A stretch of DNA of 38,453 nt, from the NCBI GenBank assembly GCA_937891735.1, contig CALAGR010000366.1, forward strand, positions 1 to 38,453, in the 5' to 3' direction. Shown here one piece after another: positions 6,369 through 11,001 of the stretch (its first letter is position 1; each line of letters starts with the position of its first letter). This stretch comes from an uncultured Pseudomonadota bacterium. GTDB taxonomy: Bacteria; Myxococcota_A; UBA796; UBA9615. Both the position numbers and the translations under genes were made by a program. The notes beneath the pieces are model-generated. The model was not told where the DNA came from. It saw only the letters and a list, made by a program, of their open reading frames with translations, and ran no database searches.

Positions 6369-6766
6369 GGTCCTGGGGCGTGCTGGCGTTGCTCTTCGCG
6401 GGGATCGGCTGCGATCCGCCCTGCGTGCAGGATCTCGATCTGGACTGCGCGCCGCTGTACAGCGACCTGTCCTGGGACACCGTGCACGCCTCCACCATCG
6501 AGACGAGCTGCGCGTCCGCCGGGTGTCACTCCGCGGACGACGCCGCGGGCGACCTCGTGCTGACCCCTGCCCAGACGGCGTGGGTGGCGCTCGTGGAGCC
6601 GGCCACGGGAGCCGCACGGGTCCTGCCCGGGGACGCCGCGTGCAGCCCCATGATCATCCGGACGGAGTCCGAGGCCGCCGCGTCGCTCATGCCGCCGGGC
6701 GCCCCGCTGGGCGAAGCGGAGCGCTGCGTCTTGCGCCTGTGGGTCCAGCAGGGGGCGAGTCGATGA
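6365..6766 (+). CDS. Small cytochrome-like lipoprotein (planctomycete-type cytochrome c domain features)
   Basis: The 133-residue product begins RSWGVLALLFAGIGC, a short signal with Cys16 as probable lipid-anchor site, although the lipobox is atypical. CASAGCH (49-55) is a CX4CH possible haem attachment site. The ending MPPGAPLGEAERCVLRLWV matches the MPPGG...L..W pattern of small mono-haem domains (PSCyt1 type) common in Myxococcota and Planctomycetes. The TTG at 6365 overlaps the previous stop (TTGA) and the gene's own stop overlaps the next ATG (ATGA), so translation is probably coupled through all three genes. A longer upstream start would lose the signal. True haem attachment through CX4CH needs testing. 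Confidence 0.7.
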   Translation: MRSWGVLALLFAGIGCDPPCVQDLDLDCAPLYSDLSWDTVHASTIETSCASAGCHSADDAAGDLVLTPAQTAWVALVEPATGAARVLPGDAACSPMIIRTESEAAASLMPPGAPLGEAERCVLRLWVQQGASR

Positions 6767-8121
6767 GCCGCCGGACCCCGGTCCCCGCCGCGGCCCTCCT
6801 GCTCCTGCTGGCCTCGGGCTGCGCAGGCTCGCTGACCCGCGAGGAGGTCTACGACCCCGCCAGCTGCGGCGAGTGCCACCAGGAGCACCTGGATCAGTGG
6901 CAGGCGTCCATGCACGCGTACGCCGGGGACGACCCGGTCTTCCTGGCGATGAACCGGCGGGGCCAGGAGGAGACCAACGGGGAGCTCGGCGCCTTCTGCG
7001 TGAACTGCCACGCGCCCCTGGCTGTGCAGCTGGGCGAGGTCGTGGACGGGCTCGAGCTCGAAGACCCCGACTTCCCGCAGTACCTCAAGGGGGTCACCTG
7101 CGCGTTCTGCCACCTCGCGGCCCACGCCGACGGGGACAGCAACAACCCCATCGAGCTGGACCCACGCACCGTGCTCAAGGGGCCGTTTGACGATCCGACC
7201 AGGAGCCCCGCCCACCGGGCGGAGTATTCGCCGCTGCTGGACCGGAGCCAGCGGGACAGCGCCCAGCTCTGCGGGAGCTGCCACGACATCGTGCTCGACA
7301 ACGGCGTGCACCTGGAGCAGACCTTCGCGGAGTGGAACGACACCGTCTTCTCCGAGGACGCGACCCTGACCACCTGCGGCAACTGCCACATGTTCAGCGT
7401 CGGCCCCCCCGACGCCCGCGAGAACCGCAACCCGCGCCCGGTGGCCACGTTCGACGGCGTGCCGGCCCGGGACTTCCACGACCACCGCATGGCCGCGATC
7501 GACGTCGCCGTGTCCCCCTGGTTCGACGAAGCGGACCAGCGCGAGCAGGTCGAGAGCCTGCTGAAGTCCACGGTGCGTTCGCAGATCTGCGTCAACCCGC
7601 TGCCGGGTGGGTTCCAGCTCATGGTGGGTCTCGAGAACGTCTCCGCCGGACACTCCTTCCCCAGCGGCGCCTCGCAGGATCGCCGGGTCTGGGCGCACCT
7701 GAGGGCCGAGGACGCCCAGGGCGTGATCTGGGAGCGAGGGCTCGTCCCCGAGGGCACACCGGCGGTGGATGTGGCCCAGGGGATCCTGCTGCGGGACCAC
7801 CTGGCGGGGGCGGACGGCGAAGAGGTGCACATGTTCTGGGAGGTCGCGTCCATCGAGCGGGACGTGCTGCCCGGGATCCGCCAGTTCGGCCTCGAGGAGA
7901 CCCGGATCTGGACCTTCGAAGACGTGCAGGGGCGCCAGCCCACGTCCGTCACCCTGGCCCTGTACGAGCGCCCCGTGGGGCTGGACGTGCTCGACGACCT
8001 GATCGGCTCGGGGCACCTGGACCCGTCCATCCGGGACGCGGTGCCCACCTTGGAGCTGAGCGGCGCGGCGCTGACCTGGAGCGGCGCCCTGGGCAGCTGC
8101 GCGAGCTCGGACGCCCTGTAG
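6763..8121 (+). CDS. Pentahaem c-type cytochrome lipoprotein
   Basis: The 452-residue protein has a lipoprotein signal (LLLLLASGC, Cys20). It carries five classical haem-binding motifs: CGECH (35-39), CVNCH (79-83), CAFCH (113-117), CGSCH (170-174) and CGNCH (205-209). A His-rich stretch (FHDHRM) and a haem-free beta-rich C-terminal half follow, including AGHSFPSGASQDRR, a segment typical of the cytochrome c554-like multihaem family. It should sit in the envelope, facing the periplasm or surface, and move electrons. It is the last gene of the operon starting at 5073, and the ATG overlaps the upstream stop by 4 bp. No partner oxidase or reductase is encoded nearby, so donor and acceptor are unknown. 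Confidence 0.88.
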   Translation: MSRRTPVPAAALLLLLASGCAGSLTREEVYDPASCGECHQEHLDQWQASMHAYAGDDPVFLAMNRRGQEETNGELGAFCVNCHAPLAVQLGEVVDGLELEDPDFPQYLKGVTCAFCHLAAHADGDSNNPIELDPRTVLKGPFDDPTRSPAHRAEYSPLLDRSQRDSAQLCGSCHDIVLDNGVHLEQTFAEWNDTVFSEDATLTTCGNCHMFSVGPPDARENRNPRPVATFDGVPARDFHDHRMAAIDVAVSPWFDEADQREQVESLLKSTVRSQICVNPLPGGFQLMVGLENVSAGHSFPSGASQDRRVWAHLRAEDAQGVIWERGLVPEGTPAVDVAQGILLRDHLAGADGEEVHMFWEVASIERDVLPGIRQFGLEETRIWTFEDVQGRQPTSVTLALYERPVGLDVLDDLIGSGHLDPSIRDAVPTLELSGAALTWSGALGSCASSDAL

Positions 8122-10055: not shown

Positions 10056-10072
10056 GGGTCCGCCAAGCAGGA

Positions 10073-10102
10073 GGAGGGGCCGGACCGAAGTCCGACCCCT
10101 CC
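10073..10102 (-). terminator. 13-bp hairpin with UUCG tetraloop, minus-strand oriented
   Basis: On the minus strand the arms GGAGGGGTCGGAC and GTCCGGCCCCTCC close a TTCG loop as C(UUCG)G, one of the most stable tetraloops. All 13 pairs form, with one U-G wobble. On the plus strand the same position is a C-A mismatch and the loop is CGAA, so the structure favours a minus-strand transcript. No long U-tract follows, so it may be a terminator, a 3' stabiliser or part of a larger RNA. Confidence 0.55.
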
Positions 10103-10900
10103 AATGAAGCGTCCTTGTCGCGTGTGTGCGCCTCTCTTCAGAGACCCGGCTCGTGGCTCGACGGACGGGCGCCCCCGCCTGGTCGTCGCAGCGCTCGTGG
10201 AGTTGGTCTGTCCTTCGACGTGTTGATCCCCGACCGGGGTAGCGGCTGCCTGGCCTGACCGCTCCGCCCATGACCTTGCCCCTCTCGGGTTGGCCTTCGG
10301 CGTCTTTCCCCGGACGAGGTGCGCAGGCGTCAAACCCTGCGCAAGTCATCCGTCCTTGAACTCCGACCTCTCCTTCAGCGCCACCATCGAGCGGTTCCGA
10401 ACCCTCACCCCGTGACGAAGCCACGAGGGAGAAGGCCCGTCGCCTCTCCTGAGATTTTCCCGCCCCTTCGACGCATGGGGTCCACCCGGTCCCTGTCCAC
10501 AGCGCGCGCGGACGCGCTGCAAGGCAGCCGTGCCACCGGCTGCCGGTCCGCCCTTGCCGTTTCTCACGACTTCGACGGCTTGCTCCCGGCCTGGCCCTCC
10601 GACATGTTTCGGTCGGTAACACCCTTGGGGTTCGGCTCGCTCGACTCACAATACCCTGCCCCCTTCGGCCGCAAGGACCACAGGGGACGGGGCCGTAGCC
10701 GCCACCGCGCCGTTTTCAGACGCAGCGGGGCCCGCTCTCCGAGCGAGATTTCTCGACGCACATTCTCAAAGATCGCCCCTGCGGGAGCGACCCTAGTACG
10801 GGGCTCCTCGACCACCAAACCCTGGGGGCCGGCCTCGGTACGTGCGCCCCACAAGGAGCCAGCGCGCAGCGGATCCCTCGCCGGGTTTTTTCTGTGAGTT
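10073..10900 (-). ncRNA. Candidate large structured non-coding RNA
   Basis: Perfect or near-perfect hairpins are unusually dense. They are 10228-10239 (4 bp), 10321-10342 (7 bp, 8-nt loop), 10508-10551 (two-tier: outer GCGGAC/GTCCGC, inner GGCAGCCG/CGGCTGCC), 10654-10685 (two-tier: CCCTG/CAGGG and CCTT/AAGG), 10773-10790 (TCGC-CCC/GGG-GCGA) and the UUCG hairpin at 10073-10102. The wobble in the last points to the minus strand, with the 3' end there. No known class was recognised: conserved RNase P, tmRNA, 6S and group II domain V sequences were looked for and not seen. The boundaries, especially the 5' end, are guesses. Confidence 0.35.
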
Positions 10901-11001
10901 TCTTTCGAGACCGCCAACAACCCACAAACCACACAATGGCTCTTCCCAGTAATTCCAGAATGTTGGATCGGTTGTTCACAGGTTGTCCACAGTGTGGATA
11001 A
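10888..11001. other. Candidate replication origin or DnaA-binding control site
   Basis: Three DnaA boxes are packed in 30 bp: TTGTTCACA (10972-10980), TTGTCCACA (10983-10991) and TGTGGATAA (10993-11001), the last a perfect reverse complement of the consensus TTATCCACA. The first two are in the same orientation, 11 bp apart, about one helical turn. The flanking 93 bases (10888-10980) are about 55% A+T by my count, in a window near 30%, as expected of an unwinding element. The usual origin neighbours (dnaA, dnaN, rpmH, rnpA, parAB, mnmG) are absent. It could therefore be a DnaA-regulated promoter or a DnaA-titrating site. Confidence 0.45.

Follow-up and report, generated by a model that had tools for sequence, protein, structure and literature searches.

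The stretch of DNA analyzed here (hereafter, the window; 38,453 nucleotides, to which all positions refer) contains a gap between an acyltransferase gene (PF01553; minus strand; 3' end at ~11066) and a fabG-like gene (PF13561; minus strand; start at ~10013). None of the open reading frames at 10060-10900 had a Pfam match, no open reading frame in the gap was accepted by a codon-usage gene finder, and a search of 10060-10900 for tRNA and tmRNA genes returned nothing. This agrees with a sequence-only reading of the window, which had seen no plausible gene at 10073-10900 and had instead proposed a large structured RNA on the minus strand. Consistent with that proposal, the minus-strand RNA folded better than shuffled sequences (z = -3.4; 0 of 20 shuffles as good) and the plus strand did not (z = -0.34; 7 of 20 as good). 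The proposed span was essentially correct; homology places the RNA at ~10786-10070, which makes 10790-10900 the promoter region. The features assigned to the locus are as follows.

10070..10786, minus strand: large RNA of the short subtype, inferred transcript of ~715 nt (transferred by homology and consensus structure)
10073..10102, minus strand: 3' terminal hairpin capped by a C(UUCG)G loop, resembling a terminator although the window copy has no U tract
10140..10675, minus strand: seven YYGAAG motifs spaced 77-104 nt apart, all of them at or close to an internal loop rich in purines
10238..10264, minus strand: 3'-domain hairpin, consensus GCGGC..AACCAAU..GCCGCUACC (columns 998-1024 of alignment A4, with compensatory changes; mapped to the window)
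10519..10635, minus strand: conserved core (models R1 and R2; 64-member alignment A3)
10523..10544, minus strand: core helix P3, the GGCAGCC-GUGGCACG-GGCUGCC region (covarying hairpin, A4 columns 551-569)
10548..10578, minus strand: core helix P2, CCGUC-GAA-GUCGU-GAGAA-ACGGC-AAG-GGCGG, two stems and a 3x3 purine internal loop
10599..10616, minus strand: core helix P1, CCGAC-CGAAACAU-GUCGG, with conserved loop RUGMAACA (covariation in A3)
10762..10774, minus strand: boxA-like anti-termination element GAUCUUUGAGAAU, aligned with GCUCUUUGACAAU of relatives
10793..10821, minus strand: candidate sigma-70-type promoter GGTTTG-N17-TACTAG, at the aligned position of the relatives' TTGNNC-N17-TANNNT
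10972..11001, no strand assigned: three DnaA-box-like 9-mers (TTGTTCACA, TTGTCCACA, TTATCCACA) within 30 bp, upstream of the RNA promoter

The ends of the RNA were inferred from the position of its boxA and promoter and from the 3' hairpin, without expression data. We classified the window copy as a short subtype because its boxA lies 139 nt before the core, compared with ~300 nt in long members of its family (f1). In minus-strand RNA the terminal hairpin reads GGAGGGGUCGGAC-UUCG-GUCCGGCCCCUCC. Its C(UUCG)G loop and its U-G pair, both pointed out in the sequence-only reading, are present, and on the plus strand the two paired positions would give an A-C mismatch.

Searching 39 related genomes at the DNA level revealed a segment of ~43 nt that is scattered over 9 of them, in some at several sites, and is surrounded by a core of ~118 nt. 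A covariance model of this core (R1) gave matches in 39 of the 71 genomes searched in the class, at 1-6 copies each and E-values to 1e-24, and a refined model (R2) detected it in 74 of 379 genomes sampled across the phylum, in many families. These scans covered Myxococcota genomes only. The window's genome has three core copies (the window, C40:22878-22996, and C224:1559-1671), with the window core scoring 96.7 bits (E = 5e-19 in its own genome). When one genome per GTDB species was scanned for an exact pattern, the 10 contigs returned were labelled as Myxococcota, Deltaproteobacteria, proteobacterium, or Oligoflexia MAGs, and all correspond to loci already found in same-class genomes. The RNA was not found in plasmid and phage collections, nor in viral contigs using the exact pattern. 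Orthologous loci exist across genera (e.g., 53-68% identity between the upstream genes of L068, L094, and L065), implying that copies are mostly inherited in place.

Several loci depart from a simple single copy. A second, weaker core lies beside the first at L111 (4001-4327), L069 (2315-2701), and G048:C118:2562-2945, which suggests internal duplication of modules. One genome carries two copies (G065:C168 and G065:C194) with equal core scores and near-identical promoter sequence, representing either a recent duplication or an assembly or contamination artefact. Other copies are truncated by contig ends (G066:C9:198-215 and G050:C453:388-462), which makes the copy numbers counted in these assemblies minimum values.

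Compensatory changes were abundant in the core. Across the 64 members of A3, we counted 163 cells with double changes versus 41 in shuffles (0 of 500 reached 163) and at most 47 when pairing partners were slid. Pairing was kept in 99.7% of cells in one stem of P2 and in 94% in the other, and single positions showed as many as six pair types. Since A3 was fitted to the P2 stems, P1 provides the cleaner test: 87% of its cells were paired and 4 of 4 pairs had double changes. Helix P3 forms part of a two-tiered hairpin that had been recognized from the window alone.

Structure beyond the core was assessed with A4, an alignment of 10 members of family f1 running from boxA through most of the transcript, from which the window was left out. 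Default consensus prediction gave 139 pairs, 89 of them with double changes, and RIBOSUM scoring gave 191 pairs, 118 with double changes; the latter comprised 244 double-change cells versus 44-70 in slid controls. The alifold energy was -347 kcal/mol, compared with -150 ± 8 kcal/mol for 15 column shuffles (z of about -25). When the window was aligned to A4, 109 of the 139 consensus pairs could form, versus 55-65 in slid controls. The hairpins initially reported are present and, on this evidence, belong to a much larger fold. A conserved pairing of boxA with A4 columns 691-695 showed no covariation, and we do not claim it.

The core is by far the best-conserved part of the RNA. This would be expected of a precursor, that is, a long transcript processed into smaller regulatory RNAs with the 118-nt core among them, and the second core in some copies (L111 and L069) would fit as well. 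However, covarying pairs are spread over most of the transcript, long-range helices among them (A4 columns 116-427, 438-676, and 864-1070), which favors one intact molecule, and we regard processing as improbable.

A recurring arrangement in A4 is a series of short helices with symmetric, purine-rich 3x3 loops between them (e.g., GAG/GAG or GGA/AGG), and [UC]UGAAG is 3.3-fold enriched over 60 members (121 observed versus 36 expected). Sponge small RNAs are long and have repeated motifs, which raises the question of whether this RNA sequesters CsrA/RsmA in the manner of CsrB. Against this, GGA is not enriched (1912 observed versus 1858 expected), nor is A.GGA (388 versus 397), leaving the sponge explanation with scarcely any support.

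The sequence-only reading would have been refuted by a lack of homologues with compensatory changes or by a protein frame conserved in relatives. Neither situation holds. The core tolerates indels of 1-3 nt among members, which speaks against a conserved frame, and no gene overlaps the core in any relative. A hidden protein was therefore rejected on the basis of these indels, the absence of Pfam matches, and the codon model. The core lies in a gene-free gap at all 61 loci (60 relatives and the window) according to the codon-model gene finder. Members are related, so counts over loci, including those of promoter elements below, are not independent events, though several families are spanned.

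An Rfam scan had been named as a check in the sequence-only reading, which had found no match to the RNase P, tmRNA, 6S, or group II intron consensus. At gathering thresholds, Rfam 15 likewise gave 0 matches in the window and 20 relatives, with GOLLD, ROOL, OLE, HEARO, RNase P, tmRNA, 6S, and group I and II introns included among the models. Relaxing the threshold to E-values up to 5 returned only weak chance-level or hairpin-like matches. One of these, BASRCII26 (E = 0.0007), was dismissed because it covered only a terminator-like hairpin and fell far below its gathering score. Taken together, we consider it practically certain that the locus belongs to a genuine family of large structured RNA genes. 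Judged from sequence alone, it fits the loose class of large stand-alone structured noncoding RNAs, being a long noncoding unit with covarying structure.

The surroundings of the loci bear on whether the RNA is a gene in its own right. In the window, fabG follows the RNA on the same strand after ~57 nt, as would be expected of a 5' leader, i.e., a riboswitch-like element acting in cis on the downstream gene. Yet genes flanking the 61 loci occur in all orientations, the downstream genes vary and at many loci lie on the opposite strand, and in relatives the RNA is closed by strong hairpins with a U run behind them. A leader function is thus barely tenable. Where a sigma-54 start and a terminator were both callable, the inferred transcript spans 954-1715 nt. 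The 100 flanking genes matched 165 Pfam families, and among the 25 of these 165 families listed there was no neighbor shared across loci, no reverse transcriptase, and no recurrent mobile-element gene. Association with defence islands was also rejected, as defence models gave only scattered single matches near the loci.

The same evidence applies to the idea that the RNA is what is left of a group II intron or of some other mobile or selfish element; a decayed group II intron had been suggested from the window. The RNA is multi-copy and structured, and two near-identical copies coexist in G065, as such an element might. Nevertheless, no Rfam intron model matched even at permissive thresholds, including those for group II intron domain V and domains I-IV. 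Loci have their own promoters and terminators and are found at the same positions across genera, no reverse transcriptase or recurrent mobile-element family appeared among the neighbors listed (25 of 165 families), and the RNA was absent from the plasmid and phage collections and, by exact pattern, from viral contigs. We therefore abandoned the intron interpretation and hold any mobile origin to be very improbable.

Many members appear to have a sigma-54 promoter. A strict -24/-12 box (TGGCAC-N5-YTGC-like) was present upstream of 27 of 58 members versus downstream of 1 of 58, with 0.35 expected. These members (e.g., CTTGGCACGCCGCTTGC) carry the GG-N10-GC -24/-12 element by which a sigma-54-dependent gene is recognized; the upstream activator site that such a gene should also have is represented by the palindrome described below. 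It is highly probable that many members are expressed conditionally through sigma-54, albeit in the absence of expression data. About half of members have no such box by the strict pattern, and the window copy, which lacks the box, does not qualify as sigma-54-dependent. Its family f1 has sigma-70-like promoters (TTGNNC-N17-TANNNT), and a paralogue in the window's genome (L067) has both a sigma-54 -24/-12 box and a boxA. The window's own sigma-70-like promoter is weak, in that a consensus scan called no promoter there, and a scan for canonical terminators in this copy found none. Given the weak promoter and missing U tract, the window copy may be poorly expressed, although no expression data are available.

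Upstream of the sigma-54 box we identified a palindrome, TGGGAA-N6-TTCCCA, at a distance of either 58-61 or 182-185 bp, two spacings that differ by about 12 helical turns. Searching 71 genomes for the palindrome together with the sigma-54 pattern gave 14 matches, 13 of which were beside a detected core; the 14th was at a contig end where the sequence continues into the RNA. The palindrome alone was searched for in 13 genomes (79 Mb) selected for carrying it, and all 21 sites were at RNA loci, compared with four sites for a reversed control pattern. Twenty were in RNA promoters, including two at contig ends that were recognized by sequence. The remaining site (L117; G037:C7:3983-4000) is not in a promoter but inside the RNA body, ~240 nt past the core. 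These counts imply that the site is nearly exclusive to the RNA gene, a distribution that points to a dedicated activator, although the binding protein has not been identified.

In RNA-repair operons with Y RNAs, too, a noncoding RNA is governed by an enhancer-binding protein of the sigma-54 type, RtcR (PMC7790460). The Myxococcota RNA is far larger, and no linkage to rsr or rtcB was seen among the recurrent neighbors listed (25 of 165 Pfam families). RtcR was considered as the activator, but searches for it found nothing in 7 of the 13 palindrome-bearing genomes. PADLOC RtcR models matched one flanking gene each. The only clear sigma-54 activator picked out among flanking genes was a receiver-AAA-type regulator beside L115, and the RtcR match, for that reason, probably reflects only the AAA domain common to such proteins. 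RtcR was rejected accordingly.

A boxA-like sequence was found upstream of 36 of 58 members versus downstream of 6 of 58. Of the 20 copies with both elements, 19 have this sequence 74-122 nt downstream of the -24 box; in the other, L067, the distance is 37 nt. In the window, the element resembles GAUCUUUGAAAAGC and GGUCUUUGAAA of 16S rRNA leaders in relatives, and across the family it matches (G)AUCUUUGA, which is present in the 16S leaders of genomes related to these. Thus, the RNA gene resembles rRNA operon leaders (PMC4807359, PMC10250234) in having a boxA-like sequence before a long untranslated structured RNA. It differs from rRNA in having no Rfam rRNA match and, in many members, a sigma-54 rather than a sigma-70 promoter. 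Anti-termination mediated by boxA is likely. This suggests that some bacteria apply rRNA-style anti-termination to a giant non-ribosomal RNA.

To our knowledge, only a handful of bacterial RNA classes of such size exist, most without a known cellular role, and we know of no report of a sigma-54 promoter, an upstream site of this kind, or a boxA-like element for GOLLD, ROOL, OLE, or HEARO. Like those large ornate RNAs (PMC12286853), the Myxococcota RNA is hundreds to more than 1000 nt long, is noncoding, and has elaborate covarying structure, and its cellular role is unclear, as is that of most of them. It differs in having no sequence or structure match in Rfam and 1-6 dispersed chromosomal copies, and, as far as is known, in its sigma-54 promoter with a nearly exclusive site upstream and its boxA-like element. 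The resemblance is therefore confined to size and ornateness. We found no description of the family in the literature searched, which did not include most subscription papers or any preprints. We regard the family as an apparently undescribed RNA class, with the proviso that "large structured bacterial RNA" is already an existing loose category.

Because the genes are independent, end in terminators, and are dispersed, we infer that the RNA acts in trans. The explanation we favor, with moderate confidence, is a multi-copy family of trans-acting noncoding RNAs under a dedicated activator, with boxA anti-termination, serving as an RNP scaffold or sequestering hub. Under this model, an enhancer-binding protein devoted to the RNA would switch it on under some condition. 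BoxA would recruit Nus factors, such that Rho would not stop polymerase on an untranslated transcript of more than 1 kb. The predicted fold of the RNA consists of rods in which 3x3 purine internal loops lie between short helices; these repeated modules may bind protein or each other, yielding an inducible scaffold or hub. A scaffolding or sequestering RNP is our best guess on the strength of the repeated modules and the precedent of large bacterial RNAs. The scaffold role itself remains tentative, as it is drawn by analogy and no protein partner, activator, or phenotype has been identified.

The RNA could alternatively self-assemble into an RNA-only multimer without needing a dedicated protein. 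Its size, ornate fold, repeated modules, and lack of a conserved protein neighbor are all compatible with this, and GOLLD, ROOL, and OLE provide a precedent by forming RNA-only multimers in vitro (PMC12286853). However, we detected no homology to these three RNAs at permissive thresholds, and the missing neighbor is uninformative about a protein partner because the copies are dispersed. RNA-only assembly is a serious alternative to a scaffold or RNP, even if we think it unlikely and have no assembly data. Returning to the favored scaffold or hub, its fullest form is possible, if short of probable: a giant RNA whose own sigma-54 activator has no other target, or almost none, whose transcription involves anti-termination of the rRNA type, and which acts as an inducible, abundant machine or scaffold with several diverged paralogues per genome. 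The palindrome and sigma-54 promoter, boxA-like elements, terminators, and paralogues are strong built-in clues that make the timing of expression, the driving activator, and the binding partner directly testable.

Two further observations concern the sequence around the RNA. DnaA-box-like 9-mers were present in 8 of 57 upstream regions versus 0 of 57 downstream regions, and in L097, L098, and L108 similar boxes precede the sigma-54 box by a constant ~84 bp. Near the RNA locus in the window, an open reading frame at 6700-8121 on the plus strand contains several CxxCH motifs and resembles a multihaem cytochrome.
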